NCBI GenBank assembly: GCA_965371225.1
Contig: CBDUXP010000029.1
Location: 1 to 45,813 of the forward strand
Source of the DNA: CBDUXP01 sp965371225 [NCBI: uncultured bacterium]
GTDB taxonomy: Bacteria; Abyssobacteria; SURF-5; CBDUXP01
Length of the DNA: 45,813 nt
Reading direction: 5' to 3'
Shown here: positions 3,699 to 36,138 of the stretch, in pieces
Layout of the letters: the number at the start of each line of letters is the position of its first letter
Numbering within the stretch: the stretch's first letter is position 1
Program-made: the position numbers and the translations under genes
Notes under the pieces: generated by a model
Database searches by the model: none
Told to the model about the DNA's origin: nothing
The model's input: only the letters and a program-made list of their open reading frames with translations

Positions 3699-4430
3699 TC
3701 AGGCGCGGGTCTTGACGTACGCGATGGCTTTGGCGAGGAGGGAGGCGGAAAAGGCCTGGAAGTTGAGCTCGGGCGCGGGTTCGGAGTAGGTCCCCCGGCG
3801 CCCGCCGGTGCGGGGGGACATGAGGAAGCACGCGGCGTCGTATAGCCGTTCGCGGACGAGCTTGGTCAGCAGGATCTGATAACGCTCGGCATACGACGCC
3901 CCGCGGAATTCATCGAACACGGGAAAGTGCGGCTCGCGCACATCGACGGGTGAGGTGGACTTGGGGGCTTGCTCCAGCAACATCAGGTACCCAAGCCAGG
4001 GCCGGGGCGACGTCCCAAGGGCCCCGTCGCGATACGCGGTCAAGAGATCGGTGGCGTTGCCAATGGCTTCTTCGGTCCGGTTGTTGTAATTATTCCCGAA
4101 TGACCCGACTTGGGACTTGAATTCGATGGATGCGAGCAGAATGTCGTCCACCACAATGAGGAGGTCCCACTGTTTCTCCGGACGATAGAAGCCGGGTAAT
4201 TCAAGACGGCGCCTGCAAAAGACCGTCGCTTCCGGAATCCCTGCCTCCACGATCAGGTACTTCACCAGCTCGACGAAACCGTCCATGTGCGCGCCGCCGG
4301 TAACGGCACTGCGGTTCCCGGCATCTTTTGTTCCGGACGCGCCGCCCTGCTTCCGTGCCTGCCGGTCGCGCGTTCGCCAGAAATGCCGGACGGCGGCTCG
4401 GAGCCGCTTTTCGATGTCGGCGCTGTTCAT
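3699..4430 (-). CDS. Type II restriction endonuclease, XhoI/PaeR7I family
   Basis: This is predicted to be the DNA-cutting half of a restriction-modification pair. The 243-aa length matches XhoI/PaeR7I enzymes, which recognise CTCGAG. The core KQWDLLIVVDDILLASIEF continues into KSQVGSFGNNYNNRTEEAIGN. It contains a PD-(D/E)XK-type site with Asp89, Glu103 and Lys105 as likely metal-binding and catalytic residues. The family's NNYNNRTEEAIG segment is intact. It starts 4 nt after the methyltransferase stop and lacks its own strong ribosome binding site, so translation is probably coupled; making the methylase first is the usual safe order. No frameshift or lost motif is seen. The recognition site is inferred from family membership only and may differ. 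Confidence 0.87.
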   Translation of the reverse strand: MNSADIEKRLRAAVRHFWRTRDRQARKQGGASGTKDAGNRSAVTGGAHMDGFVELVKYLIVEAGIPEATVFCRRRLELPGFYRPEKQWDLLIVVDDILLASIEFKSQVGSFGNNYNNRTEEAIGNATDLLTAYRDGALGTSPRPWLGYLMLLEQAPKSTSPVDVREPHFPVFDEFRGASYAERYQILLTKLVRERLYDAACFLMSPRTGGRRGTYSEPAPELNFQAFSASLLAKAIAYVKTRA

Positions 4431-4434
4431 ACCG

Positions 4435-5469
4435 TTAGGCGTTCGCGCTCACCACCCGAATGTCCGTGGCGTTAAAAAGGGTGCTGGTCTCTCGCGCTAG
4501 CCTCTTGTGCGCATCTTCGAAATACTTGGGGTCGATCTCACAGCCGATACTGTTTCGCCCCCATCTGGCGGCGGCGAGGCTCGTAGTGCCAGTGCCCATG
4601 AACGGGTCGAACACGGTGTCCCCGACAAAGCTGAACATGCGTACGAGGCGTTCGGCCAACTCCAGCGGGTAGGGCGCGGGGTGATGCCGCGTGGATGCGC
4701 CGGTGAGCCCCGTCCAGATTTGCTGGAACCACTGTTGGTGATTCTCCACGGAGATCACGCTGAGCACGCGGGTGGCCACGCTCGGGCTGCGGTACCCGCC
4801 GGGCTTGCGTTGCATGAGGATGTACTCGATATCGTTCTTGATTACAGCGTTCGGCTCGAACGGCTTTCCAAGGAAACCGGACCCGCCCTCCACTTCGTAC
4901 GCGGCGTTGGCAATCTTGTGCCAGATAATCGGCGCAAGATTGTCAAACCCGATGCCGCGGCAGTGCTCCTGAATCGAAGCGTGCAAGGGAACGACCACAT
5001 GGCGGCCTGCTTTGCGGCGAGACAGGCACACGTCGCCCACGACGCAGATCAGCCGGCCCCCGGGAACCAGAGCGTGCAGGCAGAGGTCCCATACGCGATC
5101 GAGCTCCGTAAGAAACTGGTCGTAATCTTCGATCGCGCCCATCTGGCCGGCGCTGTCCCGATATTCCTTGAGCGTCCAGTAGGGCGGCGACGTCAGGACC
5201 AGATGAATGCTCTCCCGCCTCAGGCCTAGCGCCCGTGCGTCCGAGTTGTGGAGCGCGTGCTGGGTCGGGATGCGCTGAACGGCTTCCTCGATAGCGGCCG
5301 TGAGCTTAGGATCCTTTGCGATGCGGGGCAGCGCCGTCTGATGATTGTCCAACTTGCGCAAGCTCTCCGGTACGAATTGACCGAGGTCCAGCGCGTCCCC
5401 GAGTGGAAGCTCTTCCTGGCTTGTCTGGGCAGCTGTTTTCGAAGCCGTTTTGGGCACCGTCATCCCCAT
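4435..5469 (-). CDS. DNA methyltransferase, beta-class N4/N6 type, partner of the endonuclease
   Basis: This 344-aa enzyme should transfer a methyl group from S-adenosylmethionine to an exocyclic amine in DNA and protect the host from the adjacent endonuclease. The catalytic motif IV is TSPPYW (93-98) and comes before the SAM-binding motif I FDPFMGTGTT (287-296), which is the beta-class order. SPPYW is more typical of N4-cytosine methylases, while NPPY is usual for N6-adenine, so cytosine-N4 is the likelier product. The region between (about 110-260) should contain target recognition. It is the first gene of a minus-strand unit followed by the endonuclease. Two start codons are possible (5469 and 5463) and neither has a strong ribosome binding site. 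Confidence in enzyme class is high; confidence in the methylated base is modest. Confidence 0.88.
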   Translation of the reverse strand: MGMTVPKTASKTAAQTSQEELPLGDALDLGQFVPESLRKLDNHQTALPRIAKDPKLTAAIEEAVQRIPTQHALHNSDARALGLRRESIHLVLTSPPYWTLKEYRDSAGQMGAIEDYDQFLTELDRVWDLCLHALVPGGRLICVVGDVCLSRRKAGRHVVVPLHASIQEHCRGIGFDNLAPIIWHKIANAAYEVEGGSGFLGKPFEPNAVIKNDIEYILMQRKPGGYRSPSVATRVLSVISVENHQQWFQQIWTGLTGASTRHHPAPYPLELAERLVRMFSFVGDTVFDPFMGTGTTSLAAARWGRNSIGCEIDPKYFEDAHKRLARETSTLFNATDIRVVSANA

Positions 5470-12759: not shown

Positions 12760-14925
12760 TCAGAACCGGAACGCCAGCGACATGGCGAACCCGTGCCCCT
12801 GATAGTCGTCGAATCCGCGACCAATATCATCCCCGAAATTGTAATACTCGTACCGGCAGTGCAGCACCTTGTTGGCCGCGAGGTGGTAGTCGGCCCCCAC
12901 CCACACTTCGTCCAACGTGCTATTCACATCGCTCCCATTCGTCTGCGTATGCTGGAATGACAGATTCGCGGACCACGTGTCGTTGACCACGTAGTGGCCG
13001 CTCAGAAAACCGACGACCGCTTCATACGCGTAGTCAAACGCGTTGTTGCCCGGCAGCCACTGCGTGCCCACGGGCAGCACCGTTGGCGTGTCGATCGCAT
13101 AGTTTTCGTACATGAGCATGGCGGTGCAGGAGAGGCCCGGCAGGGGCACGCCGAAGAGCGTGGTAGAGACGCGATGTGCGTCTAGTTCTTGCCCCGTAGT
13201 GCCTTGCCGGTCGAAGGCGATTTCGTCCCGCTCGAAGGCATACTTGAGGGTCGCTGTCCACGCGGGCAGCACCTGCCAATCCGTCCTGACCGAAATCTCA
13301 TGCACTTCTTGATCCTTGTCGCCGAGGATGCCTGGATAGGCCAGTGGATCGATGTCGAAGTCCTCCCGGTACTTATCCTCGTTGTCCTCAAACGAATACG
13401 CGGTCGTCACCCGCAGGCCGCGCCGCAGCCGGTGGACCACCGTAGCGCCGTAGTGCTGGTTGTGCGTATCGATATCAGCCTTGCGGGCAAAGGCGAAGTT
13501 CCGCGTCTCTCGCAGGTCCAGGTACCGTTGCTCCCACTCGGCGTTGAGGGTCACGGTCGTCTGGGGCCAGCGCTTGGACACGAGGCGCACCTGCTCGCTC
13601 ACGCGGAGTTCCTCGGTGGCGCTGGCGTTCTGCACGGGCTGGAGTGCGCCGAAGAACGGCGTCTCCAACCCCCGATGGCTGGCATCGGTGTCGGCGTAGG
13701 CCACCCGGACGTTGGTGTGGAGATCCGTGCGCTTGGCCAGGTTGAGGAACACGAGCCCGGCCGCGAGCACGTCCGTGATGCGATCGTTGTTCACTTCGGT
13801 CTGGACGAACTGGAAGCTGCGGCCGCCGCTGGGGGCCGGGCCAGGGCGCGTGACCTCGCGCGCGGAGATGTTCTTCAGATCGCTGTGGTAGTACGCCACG
13901 CTCCCGTAGAGATTCTCCGTGAGGAATGCGTCCGCCCCCACCAGCGTCCGCCACTCGCGCCACTCGAGATCGTCATCGTGCGTGAGCGTTTCCTGGAACG
14001 TCGGCACGCCCGCCAGCACCCGATATGTCGGCGCGGCGGACAATTGGTTGTCCTGGTACTTCTCCCACTCCTGCCGAATCGTCACGTTGTACGTGTCGCG
14101 GATCGTGAACGGCACTTCAATGAACAGCGTGTCGCTCGAGCCGTCGAGGCGGTTGGTAACCGGAATGGACCGCGCGCGCTGGATCACGGGCAATCCGTCG
14201 TTCCGCGCCAGGCCGCCCCACAGGAGCACTTCGTCGCCAAAGCGGCGCCACTTGTGCCAGCCGACCTTCACTTGCGGCGCGTCCGGTACGAGCAGGGTCC
14301 ATTCCACATTCGCATCCATCCGGTCCGCGTAGATGTTGCCGTCCGGCCGGTCGGCAAACTCGTTCTGCAGCAGGAAATCGCCGGGATTCCAGGCCTCGTT
14401 CGACCCGTCGTAATACTTCCGCAGCTTGCGATACTCCACGTCGAGTCGGTACGCATCAGCCTTCACGTAGGTCGCATCGACCAGAAAGTCGTCCTCCGCA
14501 ATCGCCCGCAACCGCAGTTTGAATTCCTCGCTGGAATAGAACAGCTCATCCAGGCCGCCGGTCCACCGGTCGTCCGCGAACCGATCTTGCCGGAAGCGCC
14601 CGCGGTCGCCGTTCACCTCGTAGTAGGCGGCGCCGACCTCCATGGACCATCCCTCGAAGTCGGACCACGCCTTGCCCGCTTCCGACACCGGGTAGGGGTA
14701 CGCCCACCCGCCCAACTGCTCCACCGGCCTGGGCGTGCGGTAGGTGCTGTCGAGCGTGAGCTCCGGCGCGTCGGCCCATCCCTCCTGGTCGGCCTGCGCG
14801 TCAGCGTCTTGGGCAGAGAGGGGACGCGCGTGCAGCACCGTCAGCGCCACGAGCAGGCCCCACCGCATCCGCCTCCCGGGCCTCGGCGCTAGGGATCCGT
14901 TGCCGCGTGTTGGCGCCATCCGCAT
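12760..14925 (-). CDS. MtrB/PioB-like outer-membrane beta-barrel of a porin-cytochrome conduit
   Basis: This protein of about 721 aa is predicted to be a large outer-membrane barrel that sheathes a multiheme cytochrome. An N-terminal signal peptide (RRMRWGLLVALTVLHARPLSAQ) is followed by many amphipathic strands rich in alternating aromatic and charged residues, such as FKLRLRAIAEDDFLVDATYVKADAYRLDVEYRKLRKYYDG. It ends in SLAFRF, the C-terminal Phe signature recognised by the BAM machinery. No catalytic motif exists. Size and strand content fit MtrB/PioB-type decaheme-associated porins. The gene starts 8 nt after the octaheme lipoprotein gene and is surely co-transcribed with it. The ATG at 14925 has a GAGG site; a TTG at 14937 overlapping the upstream stop is possible. 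Sequence similarity in this family is low, so the name rests mainly on context. Confidence 0.75.
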   Translation of the reverse strand: MRMAPTRGNGSLAPRPGRRMRWGLLVALTVLHARPLSAQDADAQADQEGWADAPELTLDSTYRTPRPVEQLGGWAYPYPVSEAGKAWSDFEGWSMEVGAAYYEVNGDRGRFRQDRFADDRWTGGLDELFYSSEEFKLRLRAIAEDDFLVDATYVKADAYRLDVEYRKLRKYYDGSNEAWNPGDFLLQNEFADRPDGNIYADRMDANVEWTLLVPDAPQVKVGWHKWRRFGDEVLLWGGLARNDGLPVIQRARSIPVTNRLDGSSDTLFIEVPFTIRDTYNVTIRQEWEKYQDNQLSAAPTYRVLAGVPTFQETLTHDDDLEWREWRTLVGADAFLTENLYGSVAYYHSDLKNISAREVTRPGPAPSGGRSFQFVQTEVNNDRITDVLAAGLVFLNLAKRTDLHTNVRVAYADTDASHRGLETPFFGALQPVQNASATEELRVSEQVRLVSKRWPQTTVTLNAEWEQRYLDLRETRNFAFARKADIDTHNQHYGATVVHRLRRGLRVTTAYSFEDNEDKYREDFDIDPLAYPGILGDKDQEVHEISVRTDWQVLPAWTATLKYAFERDEIAFDRQGTTGQELDAHRVSTTLFGVPLPGLSCTAMLMYENYAIDTPTVLPVGTQWLPGNNAFDYAYEAVVGFLSGHYVVNDTWSANLSFQHTQTNGSDVNSTLDEVWVGADYHLAANKVLHCRYEYYNFGDDIGRGFDDYQGHGFAMSLAFRF

Positions 14926-14933
14926 GCCGCGCC

Positions 14934-15746
14934 TCAATGCAGGAACGCGCGCTCAATGTTGGACCCGTGGGGGGCGGTATGGCAGTCGACGCAGTCCGAG
15001 CCGCGCCCCACGTGGAAGTTCGCATGGTTGAAATCCCCGATCAACCCGGGGGCGGTGTTAATGGAAGGCTCCCAATGGCAGCGCAGGCAGAGCACGCGGC
15101 CGTCCGCCACCAGGAGCTTCTCGAATACCGAGCCGTGCGGATTGTGGCACTCCCGACAGCCGGCGCGCACGGGATCGTGCTCGAACACGAACGGCCCCTT
15201 CTGCTCCTTGTGGCACTGGGTGCAGCGCTCGCTGGGGCCGCGCACGGCCTGCAGCGCCCAGGCGCCGCCGACGTCGTCCCCGTGCGGTGTATGACAGGCG
15301 GTGCAAGAGAGCCACCCTTCGGGTACCGGATGGTGGTACTGGAGCTGGAACTCCGCGCGCTTATCCACGTGACAGACGAAACAGCGGTCCGGGGTGCCGC
15401 GGGAGATCAGTGTGGGATCACCGACGTTCTCCACGTGCCGGCTGCCCGCGCCATGACACGACTCGCACGCCTCCCCCACGTACCGCTCCCCTGCTTCCAG
15501 GCTCCGGCCAGCGTGCGAGGTGAGGCGAAACCGCTCCGCCACGTCCCGGTGGCACTCCACGCACAGCTCCATACCCACATACTCGGCGCCGGGGATCAGA
15601 GGGCCCGCGAGGGTAAGGCGCTGCTCCGGCGAGGTGCCCTGGCAGGAGGCGACGCCGAGCCCGCAGGCAAGGGCGGCCAAGACGACCGCGCGGCCCCAAG
15701 GGCGCGGCCCCATTACCATCCCCGTCCGTCGTTGCGCTCCCGTCAC
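14934..15746 (-). CDS. Octaheme c-type cytochrome lipoprotein (MtrA/DmsE-like)
   Basis: This 270-aa protein carries eight CxxCH heme sites, starting at residues 62, 94, 122, 148, 175, 197, 220 and 252. The spacing is even, as in wire-like MtrA/DmsE/PioA cytochromes. The N-terminus is a lipoprotein signal: a hydrophobic run then VASC, with Cys35 as the acylated residue. It would therefore be anchored to a membrane rather than be a soluble periplasmic MtrA, which normally has ten hemes. The downstream gene is the barrel, giving a classic porin-cytochrome pair. It begins at GTG 15746 with an AAGGAAG-type site; ATG 15719 is an alternative. Its likely role is passing electrons from the periplasmic side through the barrel. 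Which membrane it is anchored in is not certain. Confidence 0.83.
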   Translation of the reverse strand: MTGAQRRTGMVMGPRPWGRAVVLAALACGLGVASCQGTSPEQRLTLAGPLIPGAEYVGMELCVECHRDVAERFRLTSHAGRSLEAGERYVGEACESCHGAGSRHVENVGDPTLISRGTPDRCFVCHVDKRAEFQLQYHHPVPEGWLSCTACHTPHGDDVGGAWALQAVRGPSERCTQCHKEQKGPFVFEHDPVRAGCRECHNPHGSVFEKLLVADGRVLCLRCHWEPSINTAPGLIGDFNHANFHVGRGSDCVDCHTAPHGSNIERAFLH

Positions 15747-15925
15747 AACTTGCTTCCTTGCGGGACTTCTCCTACCCCGAGCGCCGTGTAAAGCGCCAGC
15801 AGGTATAGCCTAACATGAGAGTAGAAGGCCCCGGAGCAGGGCCGCCCCCCTGCCACAAATGTGTATCCGCGCGGCGGCGCGCGCAAGGCCGTTTGGGACC
15901 AGTGCGCGCTACTGCGCGAGGCCGG

Positions 15926-17512
15926 CTACTCCGTCTTACCGCGCTCCTGCCACCTGTGTTCCGGGCGGCGGAGTATCTCGTCGACGACGGCTGCGGCGGC
16001 TTCCGCCTCGCGGGTCTGCCCCGCGGCGGCGGCGTGCGCGATGATCTCCCGCGCTTGCGGGATGAGTTCCATGTAGAACCGCTCGGCCACCTCGTACATG
16101 CCGTGCCAGTGGGCGTAATCGGGCGCCATCATGGCGGCGCCGTGGCGCGCGCGGCGCCCCTCGTGATGCCACAGGTAGAACCACGTCCACTCGATTTTCT
16201 CGTCGAACTGCGTCGGCGTCAGCAGGTCCTGTTCCCGCAACGCCGCGACGATCGCCCGGCCCGGCTTGGCGAACTTCTCGTTAAAGAGGATGATGAAGTC
16301 ATCGTACTGCGTGTAGAAAGCGTTCACGTAATCCGGCGTATGGCAGTGCAGACACACGTCCATCATGCGCCGCCGCTTTGCTTCGGCCGTGTCGTGTATG
16401 AGTTCGCGCCGCTTCGCCGGATCGGTCTCGGTGACCACCGCGTGGTTCACGTCCGTATCCATGACCAGACTGACCGGCGGCCGGTTCGTCCAGGAGATGC
16501 GCTCGCCCGGGTCGTGCGTCACCTTGCCGTTATTCCGCAAGTGGCCGGACATATGACACGTGGCGCACGTGGGCGCCTGGGCATAGTCCCGGCCCAGCAC
16601 CCACGTCCGCGAATCCAGGTTCATCTCCTCCCGCAGGTCCCGGTATGCCACCCCGTGCTTCGACTCTTCGTAGATTTCCTTCTGCGGATGATCCGGCCCC
16701 AGGTGGCACTTGCCACAGTTTTCCGGCTGCCGCGCCCGCCGCGGCGAAAAATCATGCCGGCTATGACACGCGGAACACGATCCGCGCGACCCGTCCAGGT
16801 TCAGCCGCCCGATGCCCGTGTTCGGCCAGGTGCTCGGGTGGAAGATGGGGCGTCCGTCTTCGTTCTTCACGACGCGGGCGACCGCCTCCGCCTTGGTGGG
16901 CTGCCCCGCAGCGTCCGGCTGCAGGTCCTCGAACGTAATCATGCCCCCGTCCGTGGCGAGCAGCGCTACTTTGCTGCCGTGGCACTGCTGACACCCGGTG
17001 AAGGCGCTGGCCAGCCCGTTCACGGTGTCCACCGCCTTGCCCGGGGTGGGCGAGTGCGGGCGGAAGGGCACGCGCGAGCCCTCCACGGTTTCCGCAAGAA
17101 AATTGTCGAGCGACGCGAGGATGTTGCCCGCCGCCGCATGATGACTGGCCGCGAATTCGCTCGCCTCGCGATCGTGGCAGCCCGCGCAGTCCCGCGGCGT
17201 CACCACCGTCGCAATGATGGCGCCGTAGTGGTTGAAGGCATCCACGTCGTCCTTCTCGGCGTCATGACACTCCACGCAGCCGATGCCCGTTTCCGCGTGG
17301 GTGCTGTTCCGCCAGTGGGCGATGATGCCGGGCGTGGTTTGCGTGTGGCAGGTCACGCAATTGATGGAGCTATCGGGCACGACGATCGGGGCCGTGCGCA
17401 GCCCGCTCTCCACTTCCTTGCGCGCCACCTCCATGCGCTGCACGTACATCAGCGACAGCAGGAACAGGAACCCGAGCGCGGCGATGATGATCTGTTTGCT
17501 GCGAAGTGACAT
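15926..17512 (-). CDS. Octaheme hydroxylamine-oxidoreductase-like cytochrome c
   Basis: This 528-aa multiheme protein belongs to the HAO family. Eight CxxCH sites start at residues 52, 79, 109, 174, 246, 266, 316 and 387, and the family segments EIYEESKHGVAYR, CATCHMSGH and WHHEGRRARHGAAMMAPDYAHWHG are present. Members oxidise hydroxylamine or hydrazine, or reduce nitrite or NO to hydroxylamine or ammonium. Tyr466 in PDYAHWHG lies where, as I recall, HAO has the tyrosine cross-linked to heme P460; its presence would favour the oxidative type. The N-terminus (residues 8-24, hydrophobic, no clear cleavage site) suggests a membrane anchor with the hemes in the periplasm. It lies 30 nt downstream of cytochrome b, so it likely exchanges electrons with the Rieske/b complex. 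The direction of catalysis is not proven. Confidence 0.88.
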   Translation of the reverse strand: MSLRSKQIIIAALGFLFLLSLMYVQRMEVARKEVESGLRTAPIVVPDSSINCVTCHTQTTPGIIAHWRNSTHAETGIGCVECHDAEKDDVDAFNHYGAIIATVVTPRDCAGCHDREASEFAASHHAAAGNILASLDNFLAETVEGSRVPFRPHSPTPGKAVDTVNGLASAFTGCQQCHGSKVALLATDGGMITFEDLQPDAAGQPTKAEAVARVVKNEDGRPIFHPSTWPNTGIGRLNLDGSRGSCSACHSRHDFSPRRARQPENCGKCHLGPDHPQKEIYEESKHGVAYRDLREEMNLDSRTWVLGRDYAQAPTCATCHMSGHLRNNGKVTHDPGERISWTNRPPVSLVMDTDVNHAVVTETDPAKRRELIHDTAEAKRRRMMDVCLHCHTPDYVNAFYTQYDDFIILFNEKFAKPGRAIVAALREQDLLTPTQFDEKIEWTWFYLWHHEGRRARHGAAMMAPDYAHWHGMYEVAERFYMELIPQAREIIAHAAAAGQTREAEAAAAVVDEILRRPEHRWQERGKTE

Positions 17513-17542
17513 GCGTGTCTCCCCTTCCCGCGTGGCGGGGGG

Positions 17543-18592
17543 CTAGTGCGCGACGGCGGCCTCCCACACGGTGAGCGTCATGATGGCCAGCGCCGCGGCC
17601 ACGCCGATCCAGACGCTGGCTTCGGAAGCCGGCCACCGCCGCCGAATCCACGCGTCCGCCAAGGGCCACCCGAACATCACAAAGACGACGAAGCCCATGC
17701 TGAGCACGGCCGCGGTCCCGGTGAACAGCTTAAGCCACCGGAACGCCACGTAGAAGAACCACTCCGGCTTGATCACCTCGGGCGTGGTGAGGGGATCGGC
17801 CGGTGGGCCCATGGTCGCCGGCAGGATCGTCGCCACAACACTCAAGAGGATCATGAGGATGAGGCCGATGGTCAGTTCCGTCAGGACATGGTCCGGAAAG
17901 AAATTGAAGTGCCGCGGCTCCCCCTCCGCTTCGTCGCCAAAGGTGAACTCCGTGACGCCGTGCAGCCGGAGGAGGCCGATGTGCATCGCCAGGACGGTCA
18001 TCATGGTGACCGGCAGGACGGCGGCGTGCAGGATGAAGAAGCGCGGGAGCGTCCGCTCGTTGTAGGCGTCCCCCGCCAGCAGCATTTGCTTGAGGAACCC
18101 GCCGACCACGGGCACGGTCTCGGTAATGTTCGCGCCCACAGTGGCGCCCCAGTAGCTGAGTTGCTCGTAGACGAGCGCATAGCCCGTGAACCCGGTCAGC
18201 AGCGTACAGATGAGCAGTACCATGCCCAGCATCCAATTGAGTTCGCGCGGCTTGCGGTACGCGCCCGTGAAAAACACGCGCATCTGGTGCAGGATCACCG
18301 CGGCGATCATAAACGTGGCGCCCCACTTGTGCACGCTCCGCAGGAACCAGCCGAAGGCCGCCTCGTGCGTAATGTAGTGCACGGACCCGTACGCCGCTTG
18401 CGGCGACGATTCGTAGTAGACCGCCAGCAGAATCCCCGTCACGATCTGCACGATGAACAGGTAGGCCGGCGTGCCCCCGAGACAGAACCACCAGTGCCGC
18501 AGATGATTCGGGACGGGTTCGTTGGTCAGTTCGCGCAACCACGCGCTGTCCAGCGGGACGCGTTCGCGGACCCAGTTGCCGAGCATCCCCAT
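17543..18592 (-). CDS. Cytochrome b of a b6-like Rieske/cytochrome b complex
   Basis: This 349-aa integral membrane subunit oxidises quinol and sends electrons to the Rieske protein and to low-potential b hemes. Both halves (b6-like and subunit-IV-like) are fused in one chain. The heme ligands are His88/His102 and His189/His204; the second pair is 14 residues apart, as in b6 and unlike the 13 of most bc1. The Qo-site motif PEWF is at 276-279. Cys37 in WWFCLGG matches the cysteine that holds the extra covalent heme cn in b6-type proteins. About seven or eight hydrophobic helices are visible. It starts 1 nt after the Rieske stop, so the two are coupled. Cytochrome f/c1 is absent; the downstream HAO-like octaheme protein could take its place. 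Confidence 0.92.
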   Translation of the reverse strand: MGMLGNWVRERVPLDSAWLRELTNEPVPNHLRHWWFCLGGTPAYLFIVQIVTGILLAVYYESSPQAAYGSVHYITHEAAFGWFLRSVHKWGATFMIAAVILHQMRVFFTGAYRKPRELNWMLGMVLLICTLLTGFTGYALVYEQLSYWGATVGANITETVPVVGGFLKQMLLAGDAYNERTLPRFFILHAAVLPVTMMTVLAMHIGLLRLHGVTEFTFGDEAEGEPRHFNFFPDHVLTELTIGLILMILLSVVATILPATMGPPADPLTTPEVIKPEWFFYVAFRWLKLFTGTAAVLSMGFVVFVMFGWPLADAWIRRRWPASEASVWIGVAAALAIMTLTVWEAAVAH

Positions 18593-18593
18593 G

Positions 18594-19130
18594 TCAGACG
18601 GATTGCGCCGGCCCAGGTGTGGGCGTGGGGATCGGGTCAGTGGGGACTTCGATGAACAACAGCCCGTGTTCCACTTGCAGCGGGTAACGCGGCAGCGATT
18701 GCCCCGCCTCGCCCGGCGGGCCCGACACGCCACGGCCATCGGCGTCGAAGATACCGTTGTGACAGGGACACCGGAAGTGCGACGTGCGACCTTCCCAGTG
18801 CACCTGGCACCCCAGATGCGGACACGTGGTAGACATGGCGATGAAATCGTCGACGGTCCCACCGTCCGCGCGGCGCGCGATGGTCACCCCGGCCCCCGCG
18901 GGGGTGTGGTACGTCATGGCGTCGCCCGGGTGCAACGTGCTCGTCGCGGCGACGAACATCCACCGGGTGCGGTCGGGCCGCGCGGGGTACAGGTACCGGG
19001 CGGCGATGGCGCCGAAGGCTCCGTAACCGGACACCAGCCCCGCGCCCATGGCCAGAGAGGACGCGGTGCTGAGGAAAGACCGCCGGGTGGTGGAGGCAGA
19101 CGGTGCGGGGTCCGGGGATGGGGCAGGCAC
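18594..19130 (-). CDS. Rieske [2Fe-2S] subunit with Tat signal
   Basis: This 178-aa Rieske protein is the high-potential electron acceptor of the quinol-oxidising complex. The cluster motifs are CPHLGC (Cys103, His105, Cys108) and CPCHNG (Cys121, Cys123, His124), including the two disulfide cysteines. The N-terminus has a twin-arginine signal TRRSFLS followed by a hydrophobic stretch that probably stays as the membrane anchor. The C-terminus is Pro-rich. It is the first gene of the minus-strand unit with cytochrome b and the HAO-like protein. The start is a GTG at 19130 without a strong ribosome binding site. The 116-bp gap to the divergent flavoenzyme gene should hold the operon promoter, but I see no strong match there. 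Confidence 0.93.
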   Translation of the reverse strand: MPAPSPDPAPSASTTRRSFLSTASSLAMGAGLVSGYGAFGAIAARYLYPARPDRTRWMFVAATSTLHPGDAMTYHTPAGAGVTIARRADGGTVDDFIAMSTTCPHLGCQVHWEGRTSHFRCPCHNGIFDADGRGVSGPPGEAGQSLPRYPLQVEHGLLFIEVPTDPIPTPTPGPAQSV

Positions 19131-34957: not shown

Positions 34958-35359
34958 ATGCTGCGCACGGTGAAGAACGTCCTGCGGTGGGTGCTGGCCG
35001 GCGTCATGGTCTTCGCCGGCGTGTCGCATTTCACGAACTTCGAGTTCTTCGTGGCAATCGTGCCGCCGTATCTCCCGTGGCACGCGGCGCTCGTGTACAT
35101 CAGCGGCGTGGCGGAGATCGCGGGCGGCGTAGGTCTGCTAGTGCCCCGCACCCGCCGCGCCGCCGCGTGGGGGCTCATTGCGCTCTACGTCGCCGTGTTT
35201 CCCGCGAACATCCACATGGCGGTGAACAACGTGCAACCGGGGGACACGGCGATCGACCCCATGATGCTGTGGCTGCGGCTCCCCTTGCAGGCGATTCCCA
35301 TCGCCTGGGCCTACTGGTTCACCCGGCCGGACGCCCCACACAAACCGCCAACATCCTAG
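34958..35359 (+). CDS. DoxX-family membrane protein
   Basis: This 133-aa protein has four predicted membrane helices (about 10-24, 42-62, 68-84 and 106-121) and the DoxX-type segments GVSHFTNFEFFVAIVPPYLPW and ISGVAEIAGGVGLLVPRTRRAAAWGL. DoxX relatives occur in thiosulfate:quinone oxidoreductase and in other, poorly defined membrane oxidoreductase or redox-protection complexes. Catalytic residues are not known for this group. It starts 8 nt after the RND transporter stop and is probably in the same operon. Confidence 0.82.
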   Translation: MLRTVKNVLRWVLAGVMVFAGVSHFTNFEFFVAIVPPYLPWHAALVYISGVAEIAGGVGLLVPRTRRAAAWGLIALYVAVFPANIHMAVNNVQPGDTAIDPMMLWLRLPLQAIPIAWAYWFTRPDAPHKPPTS

Positions 35360-35385
35360 TTCAAGAATACTTCTGCGAGGCAAGC

Positions 35386-36138
35386 ATGATCGAAAAGAAT
35401 CATGCCAGAATCATGGAGCGCGCCAGAAACATGGCACGCCGCCTTGCAGATGACACACTAAAAGCAATAGCGCTTGCTGAAGTCCACGCGCGCGGCGCAT
35501 ACGAAACGGACATTCGCGCGGTATTCAAGAAGTCTATCGAAACATGGGGATACGGTATTGTTGTTGACTCTATATTTCTAGAACTGATTGTTACTCTCCT
35601 GCGAATACATGATCATACAGGGGGAACCGTCTCATTGCCTTCGCTTTTCAAGATACTGGAATCACCAAGTGTCTTAAAGGACTTCCAGTACGATGCTTTC
35701 AAGAGACGACTTGATAGACCCATTCAAATTGATTACGGACCACACGTTGTAAAGCAAGCTGACAAGGATCAGCTACGACAATTCATCGAACATGACCTCG
35801 ACAAAGATGCTATTGCAACTTATCACAGAACCATCTGGCTGATTATAAACAGCCAGATGATATACACCGAGTTGGAGTGTCAACCGGTTCTTAAGCGGTT
35901 AAGGCGACTCCGGCATGAGTACTTCGCGCATAGCTCGTTGCATCAAAAACCACTCACTGGTACCACATACGGGGACGGGGATGTGCTTTTGAAAGACACG
36001 ATTCCTATAGTAAACGCAGTGTGCCTTGCCCTCCTCGGAACGGACTACGGGTTCGATGGGCATGCGGACGCGTGGAACAAGCGTTCTGATCGCTTTTGGC
36101 GCTTCGCAAGTCACCTGAGTTCTGAGACAACCGGTTAA
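35386..36138 (+). CDS. AbiU2-like HEPN protein, putative abortive-infection RNase
   Basis: This 250-aa protein resembles the AbiU2-type HEPN family from phage-resistance loci. The diagnostic stretch LKRLRRLRHEYFAHSS carries Arg176 and His182 (R-x5-H), the expected catalytic pair of HEPN RNases, near the end of a helical domain. An earlier conserved segment WGYGIVVDSIFLELIVTLLRIHD (54-76) is typical of these proteins. There is no signal peptide. The gene is clearly lower in GC than the flanking DoxX and ThiD2 genes, which points to recent acquisition; it is only 26 nt after doxX but probably not part of its original operon. It has its own GAGG site before the ATG at 35386. No antitoxin-like partner is visible beside it. 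Confidence 0.72.
   Translation: MIEKNHARIMERARNMARRLADDTLKAIALAEVHARGAYETDIRAVFKKSIETWGYGIVVDSIFLELIVTLLRIHDHTGGTVSLPSLFKILESPSVLKDFQYDAFKRRLDRPIQIDYGPHVVKQADKDQLRQFIEHDLDKDAIATYHRTIWLIINSQMIYTELECQPVLKRLRRLRHEYFAHSSLHQKPLTGTTYGDGDVLLKDTIPIVNAVCLALLGTDYGFDGHADAWNKRSDRFWRFASHLSSETTG

Follow-up and report, generated by a model that had tools for sequence, protein, structure and literature searches.

Do the five adjoining minus-strand genes at positions 12760-19130 of contig CBDUXP010000029.1 from the uncultured bacterium CBDUXP01 sp965371225 (45,813 nucleotides analysed, here called the window) encode one continuous electron route, or two systems that lie next to each other? An earlier note, made from the sequence alone, had proposed the former: a Rieske protein and a cytochrome b would oxidise quinol, a hydroxylamine oxidoreductase (HAO)-like octahaem cytochrome would accept the electrons, and an octahaem lipoprotein and an outer-membrane barrel would form a porin-cytochrome pair at the end of the route. 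All five reading frames were present, on the one strand, where the note had placed them, and the comparisons established their families, their order and the conservation of the Rieske-cytochrome b-octahaem module. Each half of the locus is similar to known systems, and none of the other genomes examined had the two next to each other. We consider it probable (about 0.6) that two separable modules stand side by side here, namely a Rieske/b-octahaem quinol-oxidising complex and a shortened MtrAB-type conduit, with a possible functional link between them.

Relatives of the HAO-like octahaem were collected by a scan with one genome per species, and the best 80 of 582 confirmed relatives were kept; these form the closest set and not a random one, they are 67-75% identical to the window protein, and many of their loci are truncated at the end of a contig. 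The order Rieske-cytochrome b-octahaem on one strand was kept in 76 of these 80 loci, with a median gap of 39 bp between cytochrome b and octahaem, and the record titles name Planctomycetota, Acidobacteriota, Gemmatimonadota, Krumholzibacteriota, Deltaproteobacteria, Chlamydiae, Proteobacteria and UBP7. The four exceptions were as follows: 1) L073 and L080 are truncated by the contig end, 2) in L005 the cytochrome b frame is broken and no Rieske match was obtained, and 3) L076 has neither gene within 6 kb upstream, its octahaem (L076:6077-7675) standing alone with a different N terminus. Because 76 of the 80 loci keep this order on one strand, the octahaem is probably the partner of the Rieske protein. 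The earlier note had likewise suggested that it may accept electrons from Rieske, in agreement with passages of PMC5317091 in which direct Rieske-to-octahaem transfer is proposed for the nap cluster of Caldithrix abyssi (Cabys_2556-2558), containing Rieske, cytochrome b and epsilon-Hao.

The lipoprotein and barrel are distributed in another manner, as neither had a match in the flanks of the 80 octahaem loci (0/80 at E 1e-4). The pair was found in two other genomes. In G024, a Chlamydiae metagenome-assembled genome and the only one of 40 genomes of octahaem loci in which the barrel was found, the pair (L081) is on contig C379 and the octahaem module (L024) is on C366, a contig that ends in an Alginate_exp porin; the two contigs have no common 15-mer. 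In G1249 the pair (L117:738-3525, its eighth haem site being CxxxxCH) has a CHRD gene on one side and OEP/RND efflux genes on the other, and the best HAO match in the genome is partial, with 34% identity. Sequence upstream of the pair is unseen in both genomes, because both pairs begin near a contig end. Searches by phylum detected the barrel in 1 of 151 genomes of the phylum of G024 (G024 itself) and in 1 of 247 of the phylum of G030 (G1249; this phylum shares genomes with that of G042). It was found in 0/343, 0/247, 0/198 and 0/220 genomes of the phyla of G003, G001, G042 and G005, respectively, in searches that had no positive control of their own; single-protein barrel searches may miss relatives of about 23% identity, and G1249 was found only with a two-row alignment. 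Searching all 80 octahaem genomes with the lipoprotein gave matches in 32, among which only that of G024 (48%) was window-like, the others inspected being mostly decahaem or larger. A 687-codon frame with 26 CxxCH sites was also noticed in G013 (L097:280-2340). The proposal of one complete, conserved five-gene route is thus not borne out. The earlier note had added that the two parts would be independent neighbours if homologous clusters never kept the HAO genes next to the barrel genes; no such adjacency was seen in the 80 loci, nor where the pair was found elsewhere, which comes close to that condition, although there were just two such pair loci, each beginning close to the edge of its contig.

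Table. Features of the five-gene locus, from the Rieske gene to the barrel gene, with window coordinates.
Feature	Position	Strand	Basis
Rieske [2Fe-2S] protein	18594..19130	-	Pfam Rieske E 1.6e-11; ligand motifs
Cytochrome b, fused b6 + subunit-IV-like	17543..18592	-	Pfam Cytochrome_B, Cytochrom_B_C; best solved relatives are b6 chains
HAO-family octahaem cytochrome c	15926..17512	-	8 CxxCH; solved HAO relatives
Intermodule gap, 179 bp	15747..15925	-	between HAO-like octahaem and octahaem lipoprotein
Putative octahaem lipoprotein, MtrA/DmsE (GSU2203-like) decahaem family	14934..15746	-	profile matches; alignment with decahaem relatives
Putative outer-membrane beta-barrel, divergent MtrB/PioB superfamily	12760..14937	-	profile-profile comparison

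The genes within each module are tightly packed: the Rieske stop (18594) and the cytochrome b ATG (18592) nearly touch, 30 bp then separate cytochrome b from the octahaem, and the lipoprotein and barrel frames adjoin or overlap. Genes on the opposite strand enclose the five-gene unit: upstream lies one of the DAO family, and at the other end a PilZ gene converges on the barrel, 15 bp from it. The 16 CxxCH sites noted earlier were all recovered, eight in the HAO-like octahaem and eight in the lipoprotein, and none occurred in any other window frame of at least 60 codons between stops. A chance origin of these sites was rejected, since 2000 residue shuffles per protein gave means of 0.02 and 0.08 and maxima of 1 and 2. 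As the only two frames with CxxCH in the window each carry eight, the cluster has no cytochrome c1 or f gene, as the earlier note had also observed, and the same CxxCH scan revealed no extracellular multihaem or MtrC-like partner among the window frames. Elsewhere in the window, an XhoI-type restriction endonuclease adjoins a DNA methylase (3699-5469, minus strand), and a protein with a HEPN AbiU2 domain is encoded at 34987-36138.

The Rieske protein (178 aa) has a twin-arginine-type N terminus (TRRSFL), a single hydrophobic anchor (segment 26-44) and the ligand motifs CPHLGC (103) and CPCH (121); Rieske ligand motifs were present in 76/76 relatives. For cytochrome b the list of open reading frames opens at GTG 18862, but translation more probably starts at the ATG next to the Rieske stop, giving a protein of 349 aa with seven hydrophobic segments, the His pairs 88/102 and 189/204 (13 and 14 residues between) and a PEWF loop. 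Matches to Cytochrome_B (E 1.9e-50) and Cytochrom_B_C (E 1.1e-6) were obtained, and the top NCBIfam match was ExtP (213 vs a cut-off of 290). H-x14-H was present in 75 of the 76 relatives, and the PEWY-type loop read PEWF in 59 and PEWY in 8, with none found in 9.

The HAO-like octahaem (528 aa) carries one N-terminal hydrophobic segment (7-25), an anchor that looks uncleaved. It matched eight solved chains, all HAO-type or HAO-like, including IhOCC 4qo5 (E 2.5e-43), 6h5l (E 8.6e-27) and true HAO 1fgj (E 1.7e-17), and its eight CxxCH sites follow the HAO order. Asp274-His275, invariant in 21/21 aligned family members, is aligned to Asp267-His268 in the haem-4 pocket of Nitrosomonas HAO (1fgj), a pair which we take to be catalytic; 4qo5 has Asp-Val there. 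At the column of the HAO cross-link Tyr467, located via an alignment of Ruegeria HAO with 1fgj, the window protein has Trp469, a match of moderate certainty at 24% identity, and the cross-link Tyr of oxidative HAO (P460) was accordingly not found. Octahaem relatives of 37-39% identity on two Desulfo- plasmids adjoin genes of NapC/NirT, by which reductive HAOs are usually supplied with electrons from quinol. Because the Asp-His pair is kept, Trp stands at the Tyr column and NapC/NirT genes lie beside these relatives, a reductive, nitrite-type role fed from quinol, in this case through Rieske/b, is likelier than hydroxylamine oxidation. A function as HAO in ammonia or hydroxylamine oxidation was rejected on three grounds: no Tyr at the cross-link column, NapA beside relatives, and no HaoB or c554 gene among the scanned window frames.

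What lies downstream of the octahaem varies among the relatives. Of the 78 loci with 400 bp or more of downstream sequence, 27, in several phyla, have a NapA-type molybdopterin protein directly after the octahaem (L001, L003, L005, L007 and 23 more, with a weak partial match in L026 and several loci cut by contig ends), and the other 51 do not; a NapB-like tetrahaem was found in 20 loci. In three loci an Alginate_exp (PF13372) porin follows directly (L024:7619-9163, L070:9416-11140 and L061:9701-10951), the L024 porin matching frames in eight loci, itself included. The window has neither: no molybdopterin protein was present among the scanned frames and no Alginate_exp porin near the module, and the lipoprotein and barrel stand after the octahaem instead. 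In the octahaem tree the window groups with L076 (Shimodaira-Hasegawa-like approximate likelihood ratio 82) inside a seven-row set with L024 (80), neither value being strong, and the NapA label was not clearly clustered (2 changes vs a shuffled mean of 2.9; 32/500 as low). Three side observations were made on these loci. The octahaem is 67-75% identical across phyla vs 41-48% for the main RNase Y matches (30 such genomes), a sign of unusually strong conservation or transfer; RNase Y matched 26 of these 30, with Acidobacteriota-titled genomes among the best, and SMC matched each of 25 genomes (30-37% where the match was nearly full-length), none of them standing out. A 680-codon frame with ten CxxCH sites lies near the module of L035 on the opposite strand (L035:11572-13611, minus). 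The octahaem of L036, a Kuenenia-titled contig, falls within a Planctomyces-titled clade, and the title may be wrong.

The lipoprotein, with a lipobox-like VASC read from its sequence, matched the NCBIfam families DmsE (1.3e-47) and GSU2203 (1.8e-47), both under the curated cut-off (DmsE 162 vs 192). Alignment with three MtrA/DmsE-type decahaem relatives revealed that haems 3 and 4 are missing, which leaves it short of the ten haems of MtrA/DmsE, and this loss is common to all three members found (the window and two others). For the barrel, a start at TTG 14937 would overlap the lipoprotein stop, and an ATG lies 12 bp further on; the C-terminal residue is Phe. It misses the curated MtrB/PioB cut-offs (PF11854, 18.7 vs 23 bits; TIGR03509, 15.4 vs 240). 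A three-member barrel profile was nevertheless aligned by hhalign with barrels beside decahaem genes (97.4%, E 9.3e-12, 537 columns), vs 0.6% and E 0.09 for the control with Alginate_exp porins, by which an ordinary porin was rejected. Among the four comparison barrels, one scored 231 bits against TIGR03509 (near 240), two scored 31 and 21, and one had no match; the link to the MtrB family is therefore partly indirect, as three of the four are weak or unmatched there. On these profile and alignment comparisons, lipoprotein and barrel look like a porin-cytochrome pair, and this part of the earlier proposal held.

Since several relatives have Alginate_exp porins close to the octahaem, it might be asked whether the window barrel mainly serves as a channel for a nitrogen-oxide substrate, with the lipoprotein octahaem as a periplasmic relay. 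We regard this as very improbable: the barrel is not of the Alginate_exp family, and it accompanies an MtrA-type cytochrome in all three loci. Inward flow is slightly better placed, though still improbable. The conduit would then take electrons from an outside donor, e.g. Fe(II), and the octahaem would reduce a nitrogen oxide or return them to Rieske/b. Fe(II) oxidation makes use of MtrAB-type pairs that lack the outer MtrC (MtoAB, PioAB), and no MtrC-like gene is present in the window, but nothing in the sequence sets the direction, and no Fe(II)-oxidation marker was found, though none was looked for in the remainder of the genome.

Several points weigh against two merely neighbouring modules or against the details given above. 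First, the five genes share a strand, are enclosed by genes of the opposite strand and have no terminator-like site in the intermodule gap, so that one transcript is possible; the gap, of the length reported earlier, also contains no sigma-70-like site, and its fold is not stronger than that of shuffles (z -0.79). Second, of 151 Chlamydiota genomes searched, a single one (G024) has the HAO, and it is also the only one with the barrel, which hints at a link, although this is a single case and misbinned contigs are possible. Third, eight stop-to-stop CxxCH frames were found up to 1.5 kb upstream of or inside the Rieske-cytochrome b stretch in relatives, so that a separate c-type subunit is possible there. 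Fourth, the matching of Tyr467 with Trp469 depends on the low-identity alignment. Finally, the predicted structures of the octahaem and the barrel (predicted local distance difference test 58 and 27, respectively) were too poor for use.

The first two of these points also favour an integrated operon, in which Rieske/b-octahaem would replace CymA/NapC and send electrons outward via the eight-haem MtrA-like protein, a Q-cycle powering extracellular respiration. The adjoining or overlapping lipoprotein and barrel frames agree with it, and so do the NapA-type relatives, which place the same complex beside another periplasmic acceptor. Because of these relatives, and because in the passages of PMC8805035 the partner near mtrCAB is usually CymA, of the NapC family, such an exchange would be chemically sensible. 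However, the adjacency was not seen in the 80 octahaem loci and the two other pair loci, no third, extracellular cytochrome is present in the window, and a gap of 179 bp separates the halves, and we hold this arrangement to be rather unlikely. Equally tentative is the idea that the Rieske/b-octahaem hub, beside NapA in many relatives, was rewired in this lineage to an eight-haem MtrA/MtrB-type conduit.

For the preferred reading of two separable modules, the following mechanism may be envisaged. Rieske, cytochrome b and the anchored octahaem would make up a quinol-oxidising complex, with the octahaem in the place of cytochrome c1/f. By analogy with the family, quinol would be oxidised at the Qp site, one electron passing through the Rieske cluster to the octahaem and the other recycling through the b haems. 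The octahaem, probably without the Tyr cross-link, would most likely be reductive, with nitrite or some other nitrogen oxide as its substrate; its position in many relatives would allow it to feed NapA/NapB also. Lipoprotein and barrel would form a shortened MtrAB-type outer-membrane conduit, presumably a module with a distribution of its own, which in this genome ended up downstream of Rieske/b-octahaem.

Quinol electrons usually reach outer-membrane conduits via CymA/NapC-type proteins or Geobacter inner-membrane cytochromes. If the two halves did work together, the locus would encode a system in which a Q-cycle drives the export of electrons from the cell, with energy conserved at the quinol step where CymA/NapC conserve none. 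A Rieske/b-octahaem complex that can supply a nitrate reductase in certain lineages and possibly a conduit in a further one would be a CymA-like general hub coupled to proton translocation. The arrangement Rieske-b-octahaem(-NapA) in Planctomycetota, Acidobacteriota and Gemmatimonadota offers a testable respiratory route where octahaem genes are often labelled only hao-like.

No description of the five-gene union was found in the literature searched, which comprised open-licence papers only and makes this absence weak evidence. The earlier statement that HAO-bc clusters and conduits are usually separate was correct as such, but needs to be qualified by the Geobacter extHIJKLMNOPQS cluster, which already unites Rieske (ExtO), cytochrome b (ExtP), multihaem cytochromes and a different porin (PMC5877670, in part). 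Unlike the window, ext has 5-, 12-, 10- and 4-haem cytochromes and a phosphate-porin-like barrel, and the passages of that paper name no HAO-like protein. Onr-like octahaems of Phycisphaerae appear in passages of PMC11266412.

The quinol-oxidising half resembles the Caldithrix abyssi cluster in that Rieske, cytochrome b and an HAO-family octahaem are adjacent, c1 is absent and the Tyr ligand is missing, whereas Caldithrix abyssi has NapA, NapM and NapGH, and the passages of PMC5317091 describe no porin-cytochrome pair. A Rieske/b-octahaem operon type is also described for Nitrospina, Kuenenia and Methylomirabilis in part of PMC3578206, and such operons recur in that of PMC12954380. By these descriptions, a multihaem cytochrome replaces c1/f as in the window, one Kuenenia complex having an HAO-like octahaem, but Kuenenia differs in its split b6/subunit IV and its NAD(P)-oxidoreductase subunits (PMC3578206, PMC12954380).

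The conduit half shares with MtrAB, PioAB and MtoAB an MtrA/DmsE-family multihaem cytochrome c adjoining an MtrB-superfamily barrel, and differs from them in having eight haems, not ten, in a lipoprotein, a barrel under the family cut-offs and no MtrC. Passages of PMC5877670 report no sequence identity between OmbB/OmaB and Mtr proteins. In contrast to the Geobacter porin-cytochrome complex OmaB-OmbB-OmcB, the window has no 12-haem outer cytochrome; as far as the passages of PMC4245776 describe it, that complex nevertheless resembles the window pair in combining an eight-haem periplasmic cytochrome with a porin-like barrel.

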